DNA from: Bradyrhizobium sp. CB1717 | Lineage (GTDB): Bacteria; Pseudomonadota; Alphaproteobacteria; Rhizobiales; Xanthobacteraceae | Reading direction: 5' to 3' | Assembly: GCF_029714325.1 (NCBI RefSeq) | Contig: NZ_CP121666.1 | Location: 2,604,001-2,668,000 of the forward strand | DNA length: 64,000 nucleotides | In this document: one piece after another, positions 15,341 to 62,971 of the stretch | Layout: each line of letters starts with the position of its first letter | Numbering within the stretch: position 1 is the stretch's first letter | Program-made: the position numbers and the translations under genes | The notes under the pieces: model-generated | Databases searched by the model: none | What the model was told of the DNA's origin: nothing | What the model saw: the letters and a program-made list of their open reading frames with translations, nothing else

Positions 15341-15506
15341 GGCTGTGCGCTCTGGGTGAGGGGAAGGACAAGCCATACTAGAGCACAATTTCCGCCAGCC
15401 GAAACAGCTCGGCGATCACATCTTGAGGGCGGCATCACGCCTTTCGCCACCTTGCCGCGGCAACCAGTCCCTGTAATCTGGGCAAAAGACATCAAGGAAA
15501 GGACCT

Positions 15507-51777: not shown

Positions 51778-52863
51778 ATGGCAGAAACATCCGATCAGGA
51801 GAGCAAGACAGAAGAGCCGACCGAGAAGAAAGTCCGTGATTCGCTCGAACAGGGCAAAATTCCGGTCTCTCGGGAGGCATCCATCTTCGCCTCGATGGCC
51901 GCGCTGATGGTGATCCAGGCATTCCTGATCGGCCAGGGCGTGCAGCAATTGGTGCCGACTCTGAAGGGGTTGCTCGACGATCCCGAGGGCTTTCCCCTCG
52001 GCACCGGGGCCGACGCGCTGAACCTCCTCACCGTGGTGGGGCTTCAGGCGTTTCGATTCCTGGTGCCGCTGCTCGTCATCCTGGTGGTGTTCGGACTCGC
52101 TGCATCGCTGCTGCAAAATGCGCCGCGCCTGGTGCTGCAGCGTATCGCGCCGGACCTGTCGCGGATCTCCCCGATCGGCGGCTGGAGCCGGCTGTTCGGA
52201 AAGCAGGGCCTCGTCGAGTTTGCCAAGTCGCTGTTCAAGCTCGGCTCGGTGAGCGCCGTGGTCGCCTTCGTGCTGCGCTCGTCCGAAGCGAAGGCGTTCG
52301 AGGCGATGTACACCGATCCGGTTGCGCTGCCGGAGATGATCCTCAACATCGCGATGCGGATCGTCTCGGCCATCTGCATCGCGACCATCGTCCTGGTCGC
52401 GATCGATCTCGCCTGGGCGCGCTTTCACTGGCGGCGCGAGCTGCGCATGACCAAGCAGGAAATCAAGGACGAGCACAAGCAGGCCGAGGGCGATCCGCTG
52501 GTCAAGGCGCGCCTGCGCTCGCTGGCGCGCGACCGCTCGCGGCAACGGATGATCGCTTCCGCTGCGCGCGCGACGCTCGTGATCGCGAACCCGACGCACT
52601 TTGCGATCGCGCTGCGCTACAAGCGTGAAGAAAACCCGGCGCCGCTCGTCGTGGCCAAGGGCATGGACGTGATCGCGCTCAAGATCCGCGAGGTCGCCGA
52701 GCAGAACAGGATCCCGGTGATCGAGAACAAGGCCTTGGCGCGCGCGCTCTACGAGGCGGTTCAGGTCGATCAGGTGATTCCGGCGGAGTTCTTCCGGCCG
52801 GTCGCCGAGATCATCTACTTCCTGCAGTCGAAGCAGACACCGCGCCCCGAGAAGGTTCAGTAG
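51778..52863 (+). CDS. flhB: Flagellar export protein FlhB
   Basis: Export-gate membrane protein and substrate-specificity switch, 361 residues. The polar start (AETSDQESKTEEPTEKKVRDSLEQGKIPVSRE) is the family signature, followed by four hydrophobic segments to about residue 215 and the cytoplasmic domain with the autocleavage site NPTH in VIANPTHFAIALRYKREENPAPLV. The end carries KTPRPEKVQ-like charged residues. It closes the motA-flhB block; 64 bases separate it from flgB. Confidence 0.95.
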   Translation: MAETSDQESKTEEPTEKKVRDSLEQGKIPVSREASIFASMAALMVIQAFLIGQGVQQLVPTLKGLLDDPEGFPLGTGADALNLLTVVGLQAFRFLVPLLVILVVFGLAASLLQNAPRLVLQRIAPDLSRISPIGGWSRLFGKQGLVEFAKSLFKLGSVSAVVAFVLRSSEAKAFEAMYTDPVALPEMILNIAMRIVSAICIATIVLVAIDLAWARFHWRRELRMTKQEIKDEHKQAEGDPLVKARLRSLARDRSRQRMIASAARATLVIANPTHFAIALRYKREENPAPLVVAKGMDVIALKIREVAEQNRIPVIENKALARALYEAVQVDQVIPAEFFRPVAEIIYFLQSKQTPRPEKVQ

Positions 52864-52927
52864 ATTTCCGAGGATGGTGCTTCGCCCAACAGCTTGACGA
52901 AAGCTTAACGCCCTAGGGTTCTCCCGA

Positions 52928-53329
52928 ATGGACCAGAATGGGGCTGTCGTGGGACCGCTTTATCTCTTCGAACTGGCATCGTCGCAGGCGCGGTACCTCG
53001 AGCTCCGCCAGTCGACCATCGCGACCAACGTCGCCAATGCCAATACGCCGGGCTTCAAGGCGCGCGACGTCGAGCCGTTCAACAAGGTGCTCGACACGAT
53101 GCCGGTCAGGCTTGCGACGACATCGCCGTCACACCTGCAGCTGTCCGCGGCCGAAACCGACACGCGCGCGACGGCCAAGAAGGACAGCTGGGAAGTGGTG
53201 CACTCCGGCAATTCCGTCAGCCTCGAGCAAGAGATGATCAAGGGCAACGACGTCAATCGCGACTACTCGATGAATTCGGCGGTCGTGCGCTCGTTCCACC
53301 GCATGCTGCTGTCGAGCGTGAAGACCTGA
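52928..53329 (+). CDS. flgB: Flagellar basal-body rod protein FlgB
   Basis: Proximal rod protein, 133 residues. The rod motif ARYLELRQSTIATNVANANTPGFKARDV is at about residues 20-46 and the C-terminal helix NSAVVRSFHRMLLSSVKT ends it. Start ATG 52928; a GTG at 52949 would remove seven residues. First of a run of rod genes; the 64-base gap upstream has a weak version of the flagellar element (GCTTCGCCCAACAGCTT, 52879-52895). Confidence 0.93.
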   Translation: MDQNGAVVGPLYLFELASSQARYLELRQSTIATNVANANTPGFKARDVEPFNKVLDTMPVRLATTSPSHLQLSAAETDTRATAKKDSWEVVHSGNSVSLEQEMIKGNDVNRDYSMNSAVVRSFHRMLLSSVKT

Positions 53330-53340
53330 GGTGAATTGAC

Positions 53341-53757
53341 ATGCTGGACTCACTGAGCGCCTCTCTGACGGTTGCGAGCTCCGGGCTCGAGGCGCAGTCG
53401 ACGCGCATGCGCATCGTCTCGGAAAATCTCGCCAACGCGACCTCGACGGGCCGCACCGCCGGCGCCGATCCGTATCAGCGCAAGACCATCACGTTCGATG
53501 CCGCGATGGACCGTGCCTCGGGCGCGCAGCTCGCGAAGGTCAAGGAAATCGGCGTCGACACCACGCCGTACCGCGTCGAGTACGACCCCGGGCATCCCGC
53601 CGCCGACAAGGCCGGCTACGTCAAGCTGCCGAACGTCAACATGATGATCGAGATGGCCGACATGCGGGAAGTCAACCGATCCTATGAAGCCAATCTCCAG
53701 GTGGTGAAGCAGGTGAGGTCGATGCTGGGCATGACCATCGACCTTCTGAGGAGCTGA
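53341..53757 (+). CDS. flgC: Flagellar basal-body rod protein FlgC
   Basis: Rod protein of 138 residues with the N-terminal rod motif [41 protein letters not shown] and the C-terminal [37 protein letters not shown]. It begins 11 bases after flgB and ends 2 bases before fliE. Confidence 0.95.
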
Positions 53758-53759
53758 CA

Positions 53760-54089
53760 ATGCTTGAGGCGATTTCATCCACCGCGATTTCCGCAGGCCA
53801 AGCGGCATCCCGCGCCACCGAAACGCAGGCCATCGCGCCGGCTGCGCCGACGTCAATCCAGTCGATCGACGATGTTGGATTCGAGTCGGTGATGAAGCAG
53901 GTGACGACGGACGCGATCGGTACGCTGAAGGCCGGCGAAGCGGCGTCGATCTCGGCGATGCAGGGCAAGGAATCGACGCGGAAGGTCGTGGAAGCATTGA
54001 TGTCGGCCGAGCAGGCCTTGCAGACGGCGGTCGCGGTTCGCGACAAGGTCGTGCAGGCCTACCAGGAAGTCGTCCGGATGTCGATTTGA
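53760..54089 (+). CDS. fliE: Flagellar hook-basal body protein FliE
   Basis: Small rod/MS-ring junction protein, 109 residues. The C-terminal family block SIQSIDDVGFESVMKQVTTDAIGTLKAGEAASISAMQGKESTRKVVEALMSAEQALQTAVAVRDKVVQAYQEVVRMSI is clear, after a 35-residue flexible start rich in Ala. It lies between flgC and flgG as in other rhizobia. Confidence 0.93.
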   Translation: MLEAISSTAISAGQAASRATETQAIAPAAPTSIQSIDDVGFESVMKQVTTDAIGTLKAGEAASISAMQGKESTRKVVEALMSAEQALQTAVAVRDKVVQAYQEVVRMSI

Positions 54090-54107
54090 TCTGAAGGAGT
54101 GGGTTAA

Positions 54108-54896
54108 GTGAAATCGCTCGCCATTGCGGCTACGGGCATGAATGCCCAGCAGACCAATATCGAAGTCATCGCGAACAACATCGCCAACATCAACTCGACG
54201 TCGTACAAGCGGGCGCGCGCCGAATTCACCGATCTGTTCTATCAGATGGACCGCATGCAGGGCGTCGCCAACGTCAACGGTTCGTCGCCGATCCCGGAGG
54301 GCGCCAATCTCGGTCTCGGCGTCAAGTCGGCGGCGATCCGCAAGCTGCACATCCAGGGTGCGCTCACCCAGACCGGCAACCCTTACGACCTCGCGATCAA
54401 CGGTCGCGGCTGGTTCCAGGTGCTGGGCCCCAACAACGAGGTGCAGTACACCCGCGCGGGTTCGTTTAACGTCAATGCCAACAGTCAGCTCGTCACCACC
54501 GACGGCTATCTGCTGGATCCCGCAATCACCATCCCGCAGGGAACGGTCGAGGTCACGGTCAATGCTACCGGCCAGGTATTTGCCAAGCTGGACACGGAAG
54601 TGAACCCGCGGCAGATCGGCCAGCTCAACCTCGCCAATTTCGCCAACGAAGCGGGCCTCGAGCCGCTGGGCAGCAATCTCTATCGCGAGACCACGGCGTC
54701 CGGCACGCCGGTCGTCGGGCTGCCGGGCGATGCCGGCTACGGCAAGATCAATCAGAAATATCTCGAAGCCTCGAACGTCGATCCCGTCAAGGAAATCACC
54801 GAGTTGATCTCGGCGCAGCGCGCCTACGAAATGAACGCCAAGGTCATCCAGGCCTCGGATGAAATGGCCTCGACGGTATCGAAGGGCCTTCGTTAG
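54108..54896 (+). CDS. flgG: Flagellar distal rod protein FlgG
   Basis: Distal rod protein of 262 residues, start GTG 54108 with GAAGGAG upstream. The N-terminal motif [45 protein letters not shown], the central [17 protein letters not shown] and the C-terminal [27 protein letters not shown] are all standard. It is followed 13 bases later by flgA. Confidence 0.96.
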
Positions 54897-54909
54897 TTCC
54901 GGTGTGTCC

Positions 54910-55386
54910 ATGTTGAACAGGGTGGGCCTGATCGTGCGCGGGTTGGCCGCCGTGCTGCTGGTTCTCGCCTCGGTGCGCGTCGCCGTCGCCGAGGAGAAGC
55001 GGCTTCCCGTGCCTGCCGTCTCGATCCGTGCCGGCGAGCTGATCCGGGACGACATGATCACGGAGCGCGCCTTCGCGCCGAACGTGCTCGGCGTCGCCAT
55101 GTTCATCGAAGGACGCCAGGTCCTGGTCGGTCGCATGGCCCGGCGCGCGCTGCTGCCGGGCCAGCCGATCCCGACCAACTCGGTGGAGGATCCCTGGACC
55201 GTCGCCCGCGGCGCCATGGTCAAGGTCGTCGTCGAAGACAGCGGCCTGTCGATCGTCACTTACGGTTCGGCAATGCAGTCGGGCGCGGCCGGCGCGCTCA
55301 TCCCGGTACGCAACACCGATACCGGCGTGATCATCAGGGGCGTCGTCCAACCGGACGGCACCGTCAAGGTCGTGGACGGATCATGA
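54910..55386 (+). CDS. flgA: Flagellar P-ring assembly chaperone FlgA
   Basis: Periplasmic chaperone for FlgI, 158 residues from MLNRVGLIVRG at 54910, with a signal peptide ending AVA. The SAF-like domain contains VSIRAGELIRDDMITERAFAPN and GRMARRALLPGQPIPTNSVEDPWTVARGAMVKVVVEDSGLSIVTYGSAMQSG. It overlaps flgI by four bases (ATGA). Confidence 0.92.
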   Translation: MLNRVGLIVRGLAAVLLVLASVRVAVAEEKRLPVPAVSIRAGELIRDDMITERAFAPNVLGVAMFIEGRQVLVGRMARRALLPGQPIPTNSVEDPWTVARGAMVKVVVEDSGLSIVTYGSAMQSGAAGALIPVRNTDTGVIIRGVVQPDGTVKVVDGS

Positions 55387-56513
55387 CCAGAGTCCTGCTT
55401 GCGCTCGTCCTGCTGCTTTGCGCCGCCAGCGCCCAGGCCGCCGTCCGCATCAAGGACATTGCCGATATCAAGGGGCTGCGCGAAAACCAGATCGTCGGCT
55501 ATGGCCTCGTCATCGGCCTGAATGGAACCGGCGACACGCTGCGCAATGCCCCGTTCACGGAGCAGTCCCTGCAATCGATGCTCGAGAACATGGGCATCAA
55601 CGTCAGGAACGAAACCACGAGCACCACCAATCCGACGCGCCCGACCACGCTGCGCACGCGCAACGTCGCGGCGGTGATGGTGACGGCAGACCTGCCGCCC
55701 TCGATCGGGCCCGGCGAGCGGATGGACGTGACGGTGTCCTCGCTCGGCGATGCGACCTCGCTGCTCGGCGGCACGCTGGTGATGACGTCGCTGCGCGCCG
55801 CGGACGGTGCGGTCTATGCGGTGGCCCAAGGCGCGGTCACGGTTGCCGGCTACAGCGTGGGCGGCCAGGCCCAGAGCGTCAGCCAGGGCACGCCGACCGC
55901 CGGACGCATTCCGAACGGCGCGCTGGTCGAGCGCGAGGTGCAGGGAAGCCTCCATGAAATGGAGTTCCTGGTGCTGGAGCTCAAGAACCCCGACTTCGTC
56001 ACTGCGACGCGCATCCTGGACGCCGTCAACCGCTACGCCGGCGGCCGCTACCGCTCGCAGATCGCCTTCGAGCGCGACTATCGGACTATCGTGCTGTCGA
56101 AGCCGCGCCATGTTGGCCCGGTCCGCTTCCTGGCGGAAATCGGCGAACTGACGGTTGAACCGGATACTCCGGCGCGGGTGGTGATCAACGAGCGCACCGG
56201 CACGGTGGTGATCGGACGCGACGTGCGGATATCGACGGTTGCGGTGACGCACGGCAATCTGACGGTCCGCGTCACCGAGATGCCCGTGGTGTCGCAGCCG
56301 GCACCGTTCTCGCGGGGCCAGACGGTGGTCGTCCCCCAGACCGTGGTCGAGGCGAACGAGGCCGGATCGCAGGTGGCCATTCTGAGCGGCGTCGACCTCC
56401 AGCGCCTGGTTCGCGGATTGAACCAGATCGGCCTCAAGCCATCGGGCATCATCGCCATTCTCCAGGCGATCAAGACGGCCGGCGCGCTGCAGGCCGATGT
56501 CATCGTCCAATGA
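55383..56513 (+). CDS. flgI: Flagellar P-ring protein FlgI
   Basis: Periplasmic ring protein, 376 residues. Signal MTRVLLALVLLLCAASAQA, then VRIKDIADIKGLRENQIVGYGLVIGLNGTGD, the family start. Conserved blocks ATSLLGGTLVMTSLRAADGAVYAVAQGA and LQRLVRGLNQIGLKPSGIIAILQAIKTAGALQADVIVQ are present. Overlaps flgA by four bases. Confidence 0.96.
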   Translation: MTRVLLALVLLLCAASAQAAVRIKDIADIKGLRENQIVGYGLVIGLNGTGDTLRNAPFTEQSLQSMLENMGINVRNETTSTTNPTRPTTLRTRNVAAVMVTADLPPSIGPGERMDVTVSSLGDATSLLGGTLVMTSLRAADGAVYAVAQGAVTVAGYSVGGQAQSVSQGTPTAGRIPNGALVEREVQGSLHEMEFLVLELKNPDFVTATRILDAVNRYAGGRYRSQIAFERDYRTIVLSKPRHVGPVRFLAEIGELTVEPDTPARVVINERTGTVVIGRDVRISTVAVTHGNLTVRVTEMPVVSQPAPFSRGQTVVVPQTVVEANEAGSQVAILSGVDLQRLVRGLNQIGLKPSGIIAILQAIKTAGALQADVIVQ

Positions 56514-56544
56514 TGCATAAGCGTCGTGCAAGCTTGGTCGCTCA

Positions 56545-57372
56545 ATGCTCAGGTCTCGACCGAGAATCGCACGCGCTCCGATGCTGAAGCTGGATCACAA
56601 AGCCAAACTCCTTCTGCTGGTCGCGGCCGTGGCGCTCACGGGCGCTTCGCCCGTGCTTGCGCTGGATGAAGCCAAGGCGTCGAAGCCGCTCAACCTGCTT
56701 TCCTTCGCGCGTGCTCGCGCGCCAGGACCGCAGAAGCCGGCCCCCGCGTCGCCGATACCGGGCGATAATGCATCAATCCGGGCGGCTGCGTGGGCGGCCG
56801 AAGATTCCGGGCCCGCAACTACCGGCGCGGTGCCGGCACCCGAGCCTCCTGCTTCTGCTCCTGCCCGTGCAGCGGCACCCGCACCAGCTGCCGCGCCCGC
56901 GCGTCCGGCCAAGCCCGGCAGCGTCACGGCGCCGGCGAAGCCTGCACCGCAGCAGGCCGTTGGGTCCGCCGACAACGAGGTCGCCCTGTTCTGCAGCAAC
57001 GTGGCCGATCCCGCCGTCGACGCGAGGCTCGCCTGGCAGATCAAGGAGCTGGAGAAGGCCGAGACCCAGCTCCGCGAGCGGATCGCCGAGGTCGAGGCCA
57101 AGCGCGCCGAATACGAGAAGTGGATGGCGCTGCGCGACGACTTCCTGAAGAAGGCCGAGGCCCAAGTCGTCGAGATCTATTCGCGGATGAAGCCGGACGC
57201 CGCGGCCACCCAGATCGCCGGCATGTCGGACGAGACCGCTGCAGCCGTGCTTGCCAAGCTCAGCCCGAGGAGCTCGAGCGCAATTTTCAACGAGATGGAT
57301 ACGGCGCGCGCCGCGCACCTTGCCGACGTGCTCGGCGGAATGCGCCGCGTGGATGACGGAAAGACCAAATAG
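56545..57372 (+). CDS. motE: MotE-like periplasmic motility protein
   Basis: Protein of 275 residues (ATG 56545; ATG 56581 is equally plausible and gives a cleaner signal, MLKLDHKAKLLLLVAAVALTG ... VLA). After the signal comes a Pro/Ala-rich linker of about 90 residues, then a coiled coil (LAWQIKELEKAETQLRERIAEVEAKRAEYEKWMALRDDFL) and an MgtE N-domain-like end (IYSRMKPDAAATQIAGMSDETAAAVLAKLSPRSSSAIFNEMD). This order fits MotE, described in Sinorhizobium as a chaperone for the motor protein MotC. It lies between flgI and flgH, as there. Confidence 0.8.
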   Translation: MLRSRPRIARAPMLKLDHKAKLLLLVAAVALTGASPVLALDEAKASKPLNLLSFARARAPGPQKPAPASPIPGDNASIRAAAWAAEDSGPATTGAVPAPEPPASAPARAAAPAPAAAPARPAKPGSVTAPAKPAPQQAVGSADNEVALFCSNVADPAVDARLAWQIKELEKAETQLRERIAEVEAKRAEYEKWMALRDDFLKKAEAQVVEIYSRMKPDAAATQIAGMSDETAAAVLAKLSPRSSSAIFNEMDTARAAHLADVLGGMRRVDDGKTK

Positions 57373-58068
57373 ATGAAGAATCTGATCCTCATCCTGTCGC
57401 TCCTGATGCTTGCCGGATGCGTCGGTGACCCGAACGAGATCCTGACCGGTCCGCGATTGTCGCCGGTCGGCAGCGGTCTGAGGACGCAGGCCGATCCGAT
57501 TCCGGTGACGCCGCGCGTGCGCACGCCCGTCAGCTACCGCTCGACCTGGGACGACGGCACCGATCTCTACCGCGATCCCCGCGCGCGGCGCACCGGCGAC
57601 GTCGTGACGGTGATCATCTCGATGCAGGACAAGGCCAAGCTCGACAACAAGACCGATCGCTCGCGCGATTCGCAGATCAAGTTCGGGCTGGACTGGCTGA
57701 TGGACGTCGCGGGATGGAGCGACAAGGGCTCCACCAGCGCCAATCTCAGCACCAACACGCAGATCAAGGGCAACGGTCAGATCGATCGCACCGAGGACAT
57801 CAAGCTGTCCATCGCCGCAATCGTCACCGACGTGTTGCCGAACGGCAATATGATGATCAGCGGTTCGCAGGAATTCCGCGTCAACACCGAGATGCGCGTG
57901 CTCAATGTCGGCGGCATCGTGCGTCCGCGCGATATTTCGCGGACCAACACGATCTCCTACGACAAGATCGCGGAGGCGCGCGTGTCCTATGGTGGTCGCG
58001 GAAACCTGTCTGACGTGCAGCAGCCTGGATGGGGGCATCGGATCTATGACACCGTGGCACCGTTCTGA
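57373..58068 (+). CDS. flgH: Flagellar L-ring protein FlgH
   Basis: Outer-membrane lipoprotein ring subunit, 231 residues. The signal ends in the lipobox LAGC at residue 16. Typical blocks are SLWDDGTDLYRDPRARRTGDVVTVIISMQDKAKLDN and NLSDVQQPGWGHRIYDTVAPF near the C-terminus. It begins one base after the preceding stop. Confidence 0.95.
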   Translation: MKNLILILSLLMLAGCVGDPNEILTGPRLSPVGSGLRTQADPIPVTPRVRTPVSYRSTWDDGTDLYRDPRARRTGDVVTVIISMQDKAKLDNKTDRSRDSQIKFGLDWLMDVAGWSDKGSTSANLSTNTQIKGNGQIDRTEDIKLSIAAIVTDVLPNGNMMISGSQEFRVNTEMRVLNVGGIVRPRDISRTNTISYDKIAEARVSYGGRGNLSDVQQPGWGHRIYDTVAPF

Positions 58069-58110
58069 GGTTCGTGGCGGCATGACCGCGCTGCGAGGGC
58101 AGGGGACGCC

Positions 58111-58554
58111 ATGCGCCTGATTGCGGCCATCCTGGCGCTGACCCTGGTCGCGATCGGTGCGGGCGCACTCGCGGGCCTGCATCTGTTCGCGGCCGCCGAG
58201 CGCGTCGCCGACGCGAAGAAGAGCGCCTCGGAGCCGCCGATCGCGTCAAGCTACGCCGGCAGCGCCCGGCTTCGCAAACTGTCCCCGATCGTGACCAATC
58301 TGGCCGCGCCGGCCAACAACTGGGCCCGCGTCGAGGCCTCCATGGTGACGGAAAGCATGAGCGACGAGGAAGCCGGCATCCTGGCCGCCCATATCAGCGA
58401 GGACATCGTGACCTATCTGCGGTCGTCGTCGGTCACGCAATTCGAGGGATCGCGCGGCCTCCAGCACCTGCGCGACGACCTGACCGAGCGCGCCAATATC
58501 CGCTCGTCCGGCAAGGTCCGCGAATTGATCATAGAGACGTTGGTGATCCAGTGA
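58111..58554 (+). CDS. fliL: Flagellar basal-body-associated protein FliL
   Basis: Stator-associated protein, 147 residues, with one N-terminal membrane helix (LIAAILALTLVAIGAGALAGLHLFAAAERV) and a periplasmic domain. The C-terminal part (AHISEDIVTYLRSSSVTQFEGSRGLQHLRDDLTERANIRSSGKVRELIIETLVIQ) matches FliL, including the terminal LVIQ. It overlaps fliP by four bases (GTGA). Confidence 0.92.
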   Translation: MRLIAAILALTLVAIGAGALAGLHLFAAAERVADAKKSASEPPIASSYAGSARLRKLSPIVTNLAAPANNWARVEASMVTESMSDEEAGILAAHISEDIVTYLRSSSVTQFEGSRGLQHLRDDLTERANIRSSGKVRELIIETLVIQ

Positions 58555-59291
58555 GAGTGAAAGTCCTGCTGCTCGCGTTGCTTCTGGCCGTGCTGCCCGA
58601 GGTGGCGCTGGCCCAGATCCCGGACCTCAACTCGCTGCTGCCTCCCGGCAACGGCTCGACCAGCGGCCGCATCATCCAGCTGATGGCGCTGATCACGGTG
58701 CTGTCGGTAGCGCCGGGGCTGCTCATCATGGTGACGAGCTTCACGCGATTTGCGGTGGCGCTGTCGTTCCTGCGCTCCGGCCTCGGCCTCCAGACCACGC
58801 CGGCCAATCTCGTGATGGTCAGCCTCGCGCTGTTCATGACCTTCTACGTGATGGCGCCGACCTTCGACCGCGCCTGGGAGACCGGCGTCCAGCCTCTCAT
58901 GAAGAACGAGATCTCGGAGGAGGAGGCCTATCTGAAGATCACCGATCCGTTCCGCGAATTCATGCTGGCTCATGTCCGCGACAAGGATCTGCAGACCTTC
59001 GAGTCGCTCGCCGCCGAAAGCTTTCGCAAGAAGTTCGACGACAAGCGCGTCGATCTGCGCGTGATCATTCCGGCCTTCATGATCTCCGAGCTCCGGCGCT
59101 CGTTCGAGATCGGCTTCCTCATCATGCTGCCGTTCCTCGTCATCGACATGATCGTGGCGACGCTGACGATGTCGATGGGCATGATGATGATGCCGCCGAC
59201 GATCCTCGCCCTGCCGTTCAAGATGCTGTTCTTCGTGCTGATCGACGGCTGGAACCTGCTGGCCTCCGGACTGGTGCGGTCGTTCTCGTAG
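58551..59291 (+). CDS. fliP: Flagellar export-gate protein FliP
   Basis: Membrane protein of the type III export gate, 246 residues, start GTG 58551. A cleavable signal (VKVLLLALLLAVLPEVALAQ) is followed by IPDLNSLLPPG, and the family blocks SVAPGLLIMVTSFTRFAVALSFLRSGLGLQTTPANLVMVSLALFMTFYVMAP and PAFMISELRRSFEIGFLIMLPFLVIDMIVATLTMSMGMMMMPP. It ends the operon that runs from motA or flgB. Confidence 0.96.
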   Translation: MRVKVLLLALLLAVLPEVALAQIPDLNSLLPPGNGSTSGRIIQLMALITVLSVAPGLLIMVTSFTRFAVALSFLRSGLGLQTTPANLVMVSLALFMTFYVMAPTFDRAWETGVQPLMKNEISEEEAYLKITDPFREFMLAHVRDKDLQTFESLAAESFRKKFDDKRVDLRVIIPAFMISELRRSFEIGFLIMLPFLVIDMIVATLTMSMGMMMMPPTILALPFKMLFFVLIDGWNLLASGLVRSFS

Positions 59292-59466: not shown

Positions 59467-59550
59467 CCAAAGGCATGATGCCGCCCCTCCGTACCGGTGA
59501 AAGCCCGGTATGTCCCCTCGTGAAAATGTAACGCGTACATAAAGGGACAT
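59467..59550 (+). promoter_or_regulatory. Conserved leader RNA of flagellin gene 1
   Basis: A box AAAGGCATGATGCCGCCC (59469-59486) is followed by a hairpin with stem TACCGG/CCGGTA (59492-59497, 59505-59510) and loop TGAAAGC. The next bases, ATGTCCC (59510-59516), pair with GGGACAT (59544-59550), which contains the ribosome site AAGGGA. The structure could hide the start region; the same plan recurs in genes 2 and 3. Confidence 0.7.
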
Positions 59551-59555
59551 TCGCA

Positions 59556-60503
59556 ATGTCAAGCCTGCTTACGAACTCGACCGCCATGACCGCGCTCCAG
59601 ACCCTGCGGTCTGTCAGCTCGCAGCTCGCCACCACGCAGACCCGCATCTCCACCGGCCAGCGCGTGTCGACCGCTTCGGACAACGCTGCCTATTGGTCGA
59701 TCGCAACCTCGATGCGCTCCGACAACGCCGCGCTCGCCGCCGTCTCCGACTCGCTCGGTCTGTCCGCCGCGACCGTCGACACCGAATACACCGCTCTGAA
59801 CACGGTCATCGGCGACAAGGACTCCGGCCTGACCAAGCTGCAGGCGCTGCTGGTCGAAGCCAAGACCGCCGGTATCGACCGCTCCAAGATCCAGGCAGAC
59901 GTCACCCAGATCCAGGCGCAGCTGAAGTCGACGGCCAACTCGGCCACGATCAACGGCATCAACTGGCTGAGCATCGACGTCACGCCCTCGTCGTCCACGG
60001 CCACGCCGACGAGCTTCAACCTCGTGTCGTCGTACTCGCGTGTCGGCAGCACGCCCACCATCGGTACCATCACCGTGACGACCGCCACCTACGCGCTCTA
60101 CACCACCGGCGGCTCAACGGCCAGCGGCATCCTGGATACGGTGACCGGCAACAGCACGACCGGGTTCGCGTCGGTTTCCTCGCTCAACATCGGCTCGCTG
60201 ACCGACTCGGCGACCGACCAGGCCAAGCTCGACGGCTACATCGCGCAGGTCACCGCCGCAATCGGCACGGTTGCCTCGGCCGCCGCCAATCTCGGTGCGG
60301 TCAAGAACCGTATCTCGACCAACACGGAGTTCGTCAAGAACCTGATGGACTCGGTGGATCGTGGTATCGGCCAGCTCGTCGACGCCGACATGAACCAGGA
60401 GTCCACCCGTCTGTCGGCCCTCCAGGTCCAGCAGCAGCTCGGCGTTCAGGCGCTCTCGATCGCCAACAACAGCAGCCAGAGCATCCTGTCGCTGTTCCGC
60501 TAA
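59556..60503 (+). CDS. lafA: Flagellin 1 (lateral, LafA-type)
   Basis: Filament protein of 315 residues. Both conserved ends are present: the N-terminal coiled coil (SSLLTNSTAMTALQTLRSVSSQLATTQTRISTGQRVSTASDNAAYWSIATSMRSDNAALAAVSD) and the C-terminal one (AAANLGAVKNRISTNTEFVKNLMDSVDRGIGQLVDADMNQESTRLSALQVQQQLGVQALSIANNSSQSILSLFR). The variable middle is short and rich in Thr/Ser. The size suits the thin lateral flagellin of Bradyrhizobium rather than the large subpolar one. It is about 85% like the two next flagellins by eye. Confidence 0.95.
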   Translation: MSSLLTNSTAMTALQTLRSVSSQLATTQTRISTGQRVSTASDNAAYWSIATSMRSDNAALAAVSDSLGLSAATVDTEYTALNTVIGDKDSGLTKLQALLVEAKTAGIDRSKIQADVTQIQAQLKSTANSATINGINWLSIDVTPSSSTATPTSFNLVSSYSRVGSTPTIGTITVTTATYALYTTGGSTASGILDTVTGNSTTGFASVSSLNIGSLTDSATDQAKLDGYIAQVTAAIGTVASAAANLGAVKNRISTNTEFVKNLMDSVDRGIGQLVDADMNQESTRLSALQVQQQLGVQALSIANNSSQSILSLFR

Positions 60504-60522
60504 ACTTCAGGTCATCTGGAGA

Positions 60523-60559
60523 GGGCCGCGCTTCTCGCGAAGCGCGGCCCTTTTTTTTG
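60523..60559 (+). terminator. Terminator of flagellin gene 1
   Basis: Perfect 12-bp stem AGGGCCGCGCTT/AAGCGCGGCCCT with a CTCGCG loop and a run of eight T. Confidence 0.95.
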
Positions 60560-60623
60560 GGCGTGACGCCGCGTCCGCGCCATGATCCAGGCTCGGTGTT
60601 GCAACTGAGGCACAGAGCCACAA

Positions 60624-60640
60624 GCCTCGCACAAGCTTCG
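60624..60640 (+). promoter_or_regulatory. Flagellar element before flagellin gene 2
   Basis: GCCTCGCACAAGCTTCG, the best match to the shared element, 137 bases before the start codon; TAG lies 10 bases after its CAAG. It is repeated almost exactly before gene 3. Confidence 0.55.
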
Positions 60641-60692
60641 ACGGATAGCCTCACCGCTACGACAGGTTGGGTCCTTCACCGCATTTCGGTGA

Positions 60693-60772
60693 CCCAAAGG
60701 CATGACGCCGCCCTGCCGTACCGGTGCAAGCCCGGTATGTCCCCAAACTCAATTCAATCGTCAAAGGGACAT
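60693..60772 (+). promoter_or_regulatory. Conserved leader RNA of flagellin gene 2
   Basis: Same plan as gene 1: AAAGGCATGACGCCGCCC box, TACCGG/CCGGTA stem (60719-60724, 60732-60737) with loop TGCAAGC, then TGTCCC (60738-60743) pairing with GGGACA (60766-60771) that covers the ribosome site. Start codon at 60778. Confidence 0.7.
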
Positions 60773-60777
60773 CAAAA

Positions 60778-61728
60778 ATGGGTTCTAGCCTTCTCACCAA
60801 CTCGTCTGCAATGACCGCGCTGCAGACCCTCCGCAACGTCAGCTCGCAGCTTGCGACCACGCAGAACCGGATCTCGACCGGCCAGCGCGTGTCGACCGCT
60901 TCGGATAACTCCGCCTATTGGTCGATCGCGACCTCGATGCGCTCCGACAACGCCGCGCTCTCCGCGGTCTCCGACTCGCTCGGTCTGTCGGCCGCGATGG
61001 TCGACACCGAATACACCGCTCTGAACACGGTCATCGGCGACAAGGAGTCTGGCCTGACCAAGCTCCAGGCGCTGCTGGTCGAAGCCAAGACCGCCGGTAT
61101 CGACCGGACCAAGATCCAGTCGGAAGTCACCCAGATCCAGCAGGATATGAAGCTCAAGGCCAGCTCGGCCACGATCAACGGCATCAACTGGCTGAGCATC
61201 GACGTTACGCCCTCGTCGTCCACGGCCACGCCGACGACCTTCAACCTCGTGTCGTCGTACTCGCGTGTCGGCGGTACGCCCACGATCGGCTCCATCACGG
61301 TGACGACCGCCACCTTCGCGCTCTACACCACCGGCGGCTCAACCACGTCCGGCATCCTGGATACGGTGACCGGCAACAGCACGACCGGGTTCGCATCGGT
61401 CGCCACGCTCGCCATCGGCTCGCTGACCGACTCGGCGACTGACCAGGCCAAGCTCGACGGCTACATCAACCAGGTCACCGCAGCGATCAACACGGTTGCC
61501 TCGGCCGCCGCCAATCTCGGTGCCGTCAAGAACCGTATCGCGACCAACACCGAATTCGTCAAGAACCTGATGGACTCCGTGGATCGCGGTATCGGCCAGC
61601 TCGTCGACGCCGACATGAACGCGGAATCGACGCGCCTGCAGGCGCTTCAGACCCAGCAGCAGCTCGGCGTCCAGGCGCTCTCGATCGCCAACCAGAACAG
61701 CCAGAGCATCCTGTCGCTGTTCCGCTAA
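60778..61728 (+). CDS. lafA: Flagellin 2 (lateral, LafA-type)
   Basis: Filament protein of 316 residues from MGSSLLTNSSAM at 60778; the upstream extension of the frame runs through the leader and is not used, since AAGGGA lies 8 bases before this ATG. It has the same conserved ends as flagellin 1. By direct reading it differs from flagellin 3 at only three residues (Gly/Ser at 2, Val/Ile near 261, Arg/Lys at the end). It has its own leader and terminator, so it is an independent transcription unit. Confidence 0.95.
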   Translation: MGSSLLTNSSAMTALQTLRNVSSQLATTQNRISTGQRVSTASDNSAYWSIATSMRSDNAALSAVSDSLGLSAAMVDTEYTALNTVIGDKESGLTKLQALLVEAKTAGIDRTKIQSEVTQIQQDMKLKASSATINGINWLSIDVTPSSSTATPTTFNLVSSYSRVGGTPTIGSITVTTATFALYTTGGSTTSGILDTVTGNSTTGFASVATLAIGSLTDSATDQAKLDGYINQVTAAINTVASAAANLGAVKNRIATNTEFVKNLMDSVDRGIGQLVDADMNAESTRLQALQTQQQLGVQALSIANQNSQSILSLFR

Positions 61729-61745
61729 GCTTCAAACCATCGCAG

Positions 61746-61779
61746 AGGGCCGCGCTTCGCGAGAAGCGCGGCCCTTTTT
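61746..61779 (+). terminator. Terminator of flagellin gene 2
   Basis: The same 12-bp stem AGGGCCGCGCTT/AAGCGCGGCCCT as after gene 1, with loop CGCGAG and five T. The reuse of the stem shows that the unit was duplicated with its terminator. Confidence 0.95.
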
Positions 61780-61875
61780 CATTTGGTGTGCGTTGGTCGC
61801 GCGCCATGACTTTCGCACCTCGCCCCTCGTACGTCGATTTGACGCACCCTGTTGCGGTCCGGTCACGGGGCACAA

Positions 61876-61892
61876 GCCTCGCACAAACTTCG
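61876..61892 (+). promoter_or_regulatory. Flagellar element before flagellin gene 3
   Basis: GCCTCGCACAAACTTCG, one base different from the gene 2 copy, 128 bases before the start codon. Confidence 0.55.
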
Positions 61893-61938
61893 CATGCTAT
61901 CGCCACCGTTACGTCAGGTTGAGCGCGCTTTTCCGCAG

Positions 61939-62015
61939 CCCAAAGGCATGATGCCGCCCTGTCGTACCGGTGTAAGCCCGGTATGTCCCTAACAATTCAA
62001 TCTTCAAAGGGGCGT
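61939..62015 (+). promoter_or_regulatory. Conserved leader RNA of flagellin gene 3
   Basis: AAAGGCATGATGCCGCCC box, TACCGG/CCGGTA stem (61965-61970, 61978-61983) with loop TGTAAGC, then TGTCCCT (61984-61990) opposite AGGGGCG (62008-62014). Two A-to-G changes in the second strand keep pairing as U-G, which supports a selected base-paired state over the ribosome site. Confidence 0.7.
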
Positions 62016-62020
62016 CAAGA

Positions 62021-62971
62021 ATGAGTTCAAGTCTGCTCACCAACTCGTCTGCAATGACCGCGCTGCAGACCCTCCGCAACGTCAGCTCGCAGCTCGCGAC
62101 CACGCAGAACCGGATCTCGACCGGCCAGCGCGTGTCGACCGCTTCGGATAACTCCGCCTATTGGTCGATCGCGACCTCGATGCGCTCCGACAACGCCGCG
62201 CTCTCCGCGGTCTCCGACTCGCTCGGTCTGTCGGCCGCGATGGTCGACACCGAATACACCGCTCTGAACACGGTCATCGGCGACAAGGAATCCGGCCTGA
62301 CCAAGCTCCAGGCGCTGCTGGTCGAAGCCAAGACCGCCGGTATCGACCGCACCAAGATCCAGTCGGAAGTCACCCAGATCCAGCAGGATATGAAGCTGAA
62401 GGCCAGCTCGGCCACGATCAACGGCATCAACTGGCTGAGCATCGACGTTACGCCCTCGTCGTCCACGGCCACGCCGACGACCTTCAACCTCGTGTCTTCG
62501 TACTCGCGTGTCGGCGGTACGCCCACGATCGGCTCCATCACGGTGACGACCGCCACCTTCGCGCTCTACACCACCGGCGGCTCAACCACGTCCGGCATCC
62601 TGGATACGGTGACCGGCAACAGCACGACCGGGTTCGCATCGGTCGCCACGCTCGCCATCGGCTCGCTGACCGACTCGGCGACTGACCAGGCCAAGCTCGA
62701 CGGCTACATCAACCAGGTCACCGCAGCGATCAACACGGTTGCCTCGGCCGCCGCCAATCTCGGTGCCATCAAGAACCGTATCGCGACCAACACCGAATTC
62801 GTCAAGAACCTGATGGACTCCGTGGATCGCGGTATCGGCCAGCTCGTCGACGCCGACATGAACGCGGAATCGACGCGCCTGCAGGCGCTTCAGACCCAGC
62901 AGCAGCTCGGCGTCCAGGCGCTCTCGATCGCCAACCAGAACAGCCAGAGCATCCTGTCGCTGTTCAAGTAA
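62021..62971 (+). CDS. lafA: Flagellin 3 (lateral, LafA-type)
   Basis: Filament protein of 316 residues, nearly identical to flagellin 2 at protein level (three differences seen) and with only scattered silent changes in DNA. Start ATG 62021 has AGGGG 8 bases upstream. Ends in SILSLFK instead of SILSLFR. The near identity points to a recent duplication or to gene conversion between the two copies. Confidence 0.95.
   Translation: MSSSLLTNSSAMTALQTLRNVSSQLATTQNRISTGQRVSTASDNSAYWSIATSMRSDNAALSAVSDSLGLSAAMVDTEYTALNTVIGDKESGLTKLQALLVEAKTAGIDRTKIQSEVTQIQQDMKLKASSATINGINWLSIDVTPSSSTATPTTFNLVSSYSRVGGTPTIGSITVTTATFALYTTGGSTTSGILDTVTGNSTTGFASVATLAIGSLTDSATDQAKLDGYINQVTAAINTVASAAANLGAIKNRIATNTEFVKNLMDSVDRGIGQLVDADMNAESTRLQALQTQQQLGVQALSIANQNSQSILSLFK

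Follow-up and report, generated by a model that had tools for sequence, protein, structure and literature searches.

The 64,000-nucleotide stretch of the Bradyrhizobium sp. CB1717 genome analysed here (the window; contig NZ_CP121666.1, positions 2,604,001 to 2,668,000) ends in three flagellin genes whose leaders carry the same structured element, which raises the question of what this element is and which factor acts on it. Comparative sequence analysis indicates that it is very probably a genuine structured leader RNA, found across the order Hyphomicrobiales and lacking in Rfam 15. The explanation we favour, at a rough probability of 0.6, is that FlbT of one clade (clade A) binds the element and frees the Shine-Dalgarno (SD) site, the binding being suggested by co-occurrence of the two.

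Each leader has the elements in one order (Table 1), namely a box AAAGGCATGAYGCCGCCC, a UACCGG/CCGGUA hairpin, a UGUCCC arm, an A/U-rich stretch and GGGACA at the SD site, and the box is itself a GGC-AUGAY-GCC hairpin in all three. A first-pass annotation, made from the letters of the window, had pointed out this shared order at the three flagellin leaders, and the sequences are indeed present, with boxes lying 2–3 bases inside the starts it gave. It was also right that the hairpin loop varies in one base among the copies (the 7-nt loops are TGAAAGC, TGCAAGC and TGTAAGC in leaders 1 to 3) and that TGTCCC faces the SD region each time; GGGGCG of leader 3 still pairs, by two U-G pairs. Without mismatch, the 18-base box occurs in the own genome only at these three places, and covariance model R1 finds only the three window leaders there at E <= 1. 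A box-like site with one mismatch (window 15427-15444, minus strand) has no such hairpin behind it and was taken as chance. Three paralogues alone prove little, as copies in one genome could be young duplicates; what speaks against chance is the recurrence of the pattern throughout the order, accompanied by compensatory changes.

Model R1 was built from 26 leaders and searched at E <= 1e-3 over 397 genomes of the order, from 141 genera. The element was present in 107 of these genomes and 39 of the genera (150 matches as the row sum); this search of a covariance model in the genomes of the order had been proposed in the first-pass annotation. A pattern search found it in 24 of 198 genomes of the family, and a class-wide search of 385 genomes with model R2 under strict filters gave matches in two, both of the window's genus and one of them the own genome. 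An exact-pattern scan of a named genome collection returned at least 119 stretches, and 80 loci with 95 pattern matches were read. Records with the pattern include, among the matches listed, Bradyrhizobium, Agrobacterium, Ensifer, Rhizobium, Shinella, Mesorhizobium, Hyphomicrobium, Microvirga, Xanthobacter and Tardiphaga. An annotated Phyllobacterium plasmid has a like cluster, with the element 5' of a flagellin and flaF-flbT downstream.

Covariation argues that the conserved sequence acts as RNA. In an alignment of 104 leaders drawn from 100 loci and fitted to the model, 10 of the 15 pairs changed on both sides, with 63 such cells against 8.0 ± 5.9 in shuffled alignments. Because this alignment was fitted to the model, 89 leaders were realigned by sequence alone. 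Here 7 of the 15 pairs changed on both sides (1/500 shuffles reaches 7), the double-changed cells numbered 44 against 10.7 ± 5.6 in shuffles, and the score was 0.149 against 0.101 ± 0.004 (0/500 shuffles); pairing cells made up 94.2% in the true register and 32–49% in slid registers. The changes are present in all three helices. The box helix turns from GGC/GCC into AGC/GCU, UGC/GCA or GAC/GUC, the CCGG stem has the variants UCGG/CCGA and, in L135, GCUGC/GCAGC, and the SD helix passes from UGUCCC/GGGACA to UGUUCC/GGAACA or UGUCUUUC/GAAAGACG. The box loop reads AUGAN in 84 of the 89 leaders.

The arm opposite the SD follows its own partner. In a swap test, for which arm positions were taken from the sequence-only alignment, the 22 of 89 leaders with an arm other than UGUCCC paired better with their own downstream SD region, and 0/2000 permutations were as good. 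The unpaired probability of the SD was 0.142, compared with 0.274 when the upstream part was shuffled; in 75 of 85 leaders the value was lower than the mean of the leader's own controls, and in 22 it was lower than in each of the leader's 12 shuffles. Two ideas of the first-pass annotation are thereby borne out, that homologous leaders hold compensatory changes (found here with shuffled, slid and swapped controls) and that the structured leader is able to mask the SD, for which covariation, swap test and SD accessibility all speak.

The genes behind the element are mainly flagellins. The DNA was read behind 132 leaders (104 of the model alignment and 28 more, which is a part of the R1 matches), and a flagellin-like open reading frame (ORF) followed 120 of them (98/104 and 22/28) by BLAST against the window flagellins; L109 is flagellin-like by BLAST and has no Pfam domain. 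Two leaders (L112 and L124) meet contig ends and begin like a flagellin, and in L176 and L178 the flagellin ORF lies slightly further downstream. Eight of the 132 remain after these. A HAMP domain follows the element in L122 and L161 (Pfam), and protoglobin follows it in L143 and L174, with L183 resembling L143 by eye; the leaders of the protoglobin cases are without the UGUCCC arm. These HAMP and protoglobin stretches, which are cut, look like chemoreceptors. CheA-type kinase domains stand behind a weak match (L179, E 6e-4) that may be chance, and the downstream ORFs of L118 and L182 gave no Pfam match. Of the 95 pattern matches read in the named collection, 83 precede a flagellin ORF by BLAST and 9 more start like flagellin where the DNA ends early or the frame is misread; the remainder are L352, which ends after 4 bases, L358, a methyl-accepting chemotaxis protein, and L367, which is ambiguous. 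Thus the earlier association of the element with flagellins holds in the main, and does not hold for a few cases before sensor or chemotaxis genes. Perhaps the element, or a version of it without the SD arm, marks a wider late regulon there.

The candidate partner, FlbT (PF07378), is encoded in 287 of the 397 genomes. A tree of 55 rows from 39 chosen genomes (out of 40 genomes and 57 places, two G122 fragments being left out) separates two clades with support of 100/100. Clade A has 26 rows: for 24 there is an element within 60 kb, and the other 2 come from element genomes but from contigs other than that of the element. In clade B, 0/29 rows are linked to an element. Seven FlbT rows were compared with NCBIfam: five pass the cut-off of NF001995 (clade A) or NF009432 (clade B), and two score below it, best with the model of the matching clade. 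The clade A profile is bimodal across the 397 genomes (at least 131 bits or at most 58), apart from a broken frame in G556 (87 bits) that was counted as absent. With this division, 107 genomes carry element and FlbT-A, 0 the element only, 8 FlbT-A only and 282 neither, where the genomes are related and do not form a set of independent events. A laxer search of the eight FlbT-A-only genomes found weak elements before flagellins in four (G352, G399, G434 and G450; E 3e-4 to 0.008). Weak R2 matches in 7 of 30 genomes without FlbT-A (8 matches, E 0.027 to 0.47) were set aside, as 0/7 loci read precede a flagellin. In genera g1, g143, g115 and g153 the element genomes have at least two FlbT matches and the others one, except G559, whose two FlbT both fall in clade B of the tree, and G122, whose single FlbT gene is in two pieces. 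Co-occurrence with one FlbT clade makes a link of FlbT to the element the favoured assignment, with binding as its presumed basis.

A degraded case was also seen. The FlbT-A frame of G556, a 1.6 Mb genome, holds four stop codons (G556:C4:43313-43684), and two weak elements before flagellin-like starts remain in that genome.

As we picture it, the element would act in cis as a leader RNA in late flagellar mRNAs. In the default state the UGUCCC arm would be paired with the SD region and translation would be low; clade A FlbT, encoded with the hook genes and perhaps with FlaF or a flagellin assisting or counteracting it, would recognise box and hairpin and would favour the SD-free form, so that flagellin would be translated once the flagellum is ready. 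A possible switch point lies directly 3' of the CCGG hairpin, where a U and a G are invariant in the 89 sequence-aligned leaders. The U pairs with the SD arm in 86 leaders and the G in 84; the alternative partners, the two bases preceding the hairpin, would be available to them in 79 and 78. We infer that this shared U-G belongs to two overlapping forms: paired before the hairpin, it would lengthen the hairpin and shorten the SD helix; paired with the SD arm, it would make the SD helix longer. Of the parts of this mechanism, action of the linked FlbT clade through the element is quite likely, and freeing of the SD as its mode of action has slightly better than even chances. The widest version is offered tentatively, its chances falling a little short of even: the element would be the RNA target of an activator FlbT clade across Hyphomicrobiales, working as a protein-operated switch by way of the invariant U-G and serving a late regulon. 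Such a regulon would cover flagellins and perhaps some chemoreceptors.

Several observations weigh against FlbT-mediated freeing of the SD, some touching the partner and others the structure. NCBIfam names both FlbT clades repressor, and for Caulobacter two papers describe FlbT as a repressor of flagellin translation that is partnered by the FljJ flagellin (PMC3930126, PMC7591256). The clade A/B split is one at which long branches join, as the tree program cautions. Four genomes (G314, G489, G502 and G540) carry FlbT-A and no element was found in them even with laxer filters. Since one flagellar cluster contains both FlbT-A and the element, the co-occurrence may reflect the whole system. As for the structure, the folding-energy z values of the three window leaders (-0.95, -1.10 and -1.18) are near the shuffle mean and unimpressive; in the minimum-energy folds, leaders 1 and 2 lack the box hairpin, and leader 3 lacks the CCGG hairpin when upstream sequence is included. 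Across the 89 leaders the CCGG hairpin has a broken second pair in 27 and a broken first pair in 13, the RNAalifold consensus fold is weak (-7.31 kcal/mol), and slid registers also have 4–7 double-changed pairs, though with 13–18 such cells against 44. The UGUCCC arm is lost in L132, L139, L148, L153, L157 and L284 and ahead of the protoglobin genes; in L139, L148 and L153 the SD is predicted to be paired with a nearby ACCU or to lie inside a longer fold. Finally, the model presumes that the flagellin mRNA includes the element.

The conservation could also be that of a DNA operator, for instance of a Rem/LafR regulator: the box GGC-N5-GCC forms a short dyad, and its position before the genes of this regulated system is fixed. 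An operator is hardly credible, however, given the compensatory helix changes and a last helix that includes the SD, with arms that change together at a distance of 15–35 bases (in 56 leaders with UGUCCC and GGGACA); the box stands 70–94 bases 5' of the start codon in 83 leaders, and conservation falls more than 5 bases upstream of it. A ligand riboswitch or an RNA thermometer is a further alternative, and masking of the SD fits a thermometer. The 7-nt UGNRA-plus-two loop closed by G-C, which resembles the T-loop of tRNA and cobalamin riboswitches, is present in the window (e.g. 59498-59504) and in many other leaders. Two riboswitch- or ribozyme-family matches were seen, both far below threshold: a 17-base partial one to twister-sister on hairpin 2 (E 8.8) and one to c-di-GMP-II-GAG (E 1.3), which falls within a gene on the other strand. 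Still, leaders with intact helices differ in the length and sequence of this loop, the Rfam thresholds are reached by no family and no large invariant unpaired core exists, which leaves this class of explanation very improbable. The T-loop reading was dropped: many leaders retain the loop, including some from outside the family (L061, L069, L071 and L079), but others replace it. A leader peptide from the AUG of the box was rejected as well, with frames scattered over 18, 36 and 29 of 83 leaders and 44 of the 83 hitting a stop in the leader.

The structure evidence (covariation and swap test) is independent of FlbT, and an SD-masking or mRNA-stability leader may be real while its partner is another flagellar factor, such as FlaF, a flagellin, a ribonuclease or a small RNA, or while it has no partner and FlbT-A merely travels with the cluster. 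FlbT-A, FlaF, the hook genes and flagellin sit in one cluster, and each would give the same co-occurrence. Against this, published work reports FlbT as acting on the flagellin 5' untranslated region (UTR) in other alphaproteobacteria, and in B. diazoefficiens flbT, under LafR, is said in a review to induce LafA1 and LafA2 translationally (PMC8429497); we consider a different partner, or none, unlikely but deserving attention. Clade A FlbT could also bind the element and repress, holding the SD helix closed until secretion relieves it, as in the Caulobacter model; a helix over the SD is a natural repressed form, and the NCBIfam name agrees. This sign of action is doubtful in view of the activation reported for Bradyrhizobium and for Brucella, where FlbT is described as an activator, its mechanism unresolved (PMC4347634, PMC9812332). 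Activation by clade A FlbT through the element stays the preferred explanation.

The window ends in a lateral-type flagellar cluster with flhB, rod and ring genes, fliL, fliP and then the three flagellin genes, and the lateral-cluster gene list in PMC6406911 fits the genes seen. All three flagellins, with start codons at 59556, 60778 and 62021, have Pfam Flagellin_N and Flagellin_C; translation of the second from an upstream GTG would run through the leader, and that start is disfavoured. The host genome measures 9.2 Mb, and flaF and flbT start about 10 kb beyond the window end. By eye, GC-rich hairpins followed by T runs lie 3' of flagellin genes 1 and 2 (window 60523-60558 and 61747-61779). 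They probably act as intrinsic terminators, in which case each flagellin could be transcribed separately. Under R1, a further flagellin-like gene and the four large flagellins of the own genome are without the element. A flagellin-like gene pair lacking it is found about 95 kb past the lateral flagellins (C1:2760791-2761201 and 2769031-2769420), and perhaps belongs to a third flagellar system. A second FlbT, of clade B, adjoins the four large flagellins (C1:3749338-3758150), and three of their four leaders share AGAARGGTAA shortly 5' of the ATG, a sequence unlike the element.

Table 1. Positions in the window of the flagellar genes and of the parts of the three flagellin leaders.
Feature	Position	Strand	Remark
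Upstream flagellar genes	51778..59291	+	domain/family scans of selected genes
flhB	51778-52863	+	
FlgE/F/G-type rod protein	54108-54896	+	
flgI	55383-56513	+	
fliL	58111-58554	+	
fliP	58551-59291	+	
Box, leader 1	59469..59486	+	AAAGGCATGATGCCGCCC; GGC/GCC hairpin, AUGAU loop
TACCGG/CCGGTA hairpin, leader 1	59492..59510	+	
UGUCCC anti-SD arm, leader 1	59511..59516	+	
GGGACA SD arm, leader 1	59544..59549	+	
Flagellin gene 1	59556..60503	+	lateral type, 315 aa
Box, leader 2	60696..60713	+	AAAGGCATGACGCCGCCC
TACCGG/CCGGTA hairpin, leader 2	60719..60737	+	
UGUCCC anti-SD arm, leader 2	60738..60743	+	
GGGACA SD arm, leader 2	60766..60771	+	
Flagellin gene 2	60778..61728	+	316 aa
Box, leader 3	61942..61959	+	AAAGGCATGATGCCGCCC
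TACCGG/CCGGTA hairpin, leader 3	61965..61983	+	
UGUCCC anti-SD arm, leader 3	61984..61989	+	
GGGGCG SD arm, leader 3	62009..62014	+	pairing kept via two U-G pairs
Flagellin gene 3	62021..62971	+	316 aa

Among known RNAs, the flg-Rhizobiales motif (RF01736) had been considered in the first-pass annotation as a possible identity of the element. Neither the window nor 20 related leader loci gave a match above the gathering threshold for any of the 4227 families of Rfam 15, and RF01736 was absent from the 14 matches obtained over the leader region at E <= 10. In the own genome it lies in another flagellar region (C1:3774865-3775011), before flgF as judged by the NCBIfam FlgF models. The gene behind it is flgF in the own genome and two others (3 of 17 matches scanned); the remaining matches were judged by eye, and L052 and L055 differ from flgF. 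Because RF01736 misses the leaders and lies before flgF elsewhere, the element is not flg-Rhizobiales, and that identity was abandoned. Both are candidate cis-regulatory RNAs beside flagellar genes of the same order and occur together in the own genome, but RF01736 has 141 positions, three stem-loops and another sequence. No printed description of the element was found in the literature searched, and one may exist in subscription papers, which were mostly outside the search. The element adds an RNA family that Rfam 15 lacks and that was seen in 39 of the 141 genera sampled from the order.

CsrA/FliW offers a second parallel, in which the SD of a flagellin leader is the target of a small RNA-binding protein; the likeness is that of a flagellin leader with the SD as target. 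Kinship of FlbT with CsrA is not claimed. The hhalign probability is 4.4% for clade B and 0.1–0.7% for clade A, a weak motif resemblance, and CsrA is absent among the 50 Foldseek and VIA-align matches listed for the FlbT models, where the helical domain dominates the fold searches.

A third parallel is the FlbT-regulated flagellin 5' UTR of Caulobacter: a flagellin leader, a protein of the FlbT family and post-transcriptional control are common to both, and Che transcripts are also said to be under FlbT control. They differ in that FlbT represses there, and the strict R2 search of 385 class genomes matched the window's genus only. The literature treats the mode of action of FlbT as unresolved, and the sign reported for it is opposite in different bacteria; with a defined element, possible extra targets and predictions for both the switch point and the partner clade, the question becomes directly testable in a soybean symbiont. 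The element adjoins flagellin start codons and includes the SD, and 107/107 element genomes encode FlbT-A, both of which fit FlbT-controlled leaders. If only one FlbT clade reads the element, FlbT activation in rhizobia could be reconciled with repression in Caulobacter.

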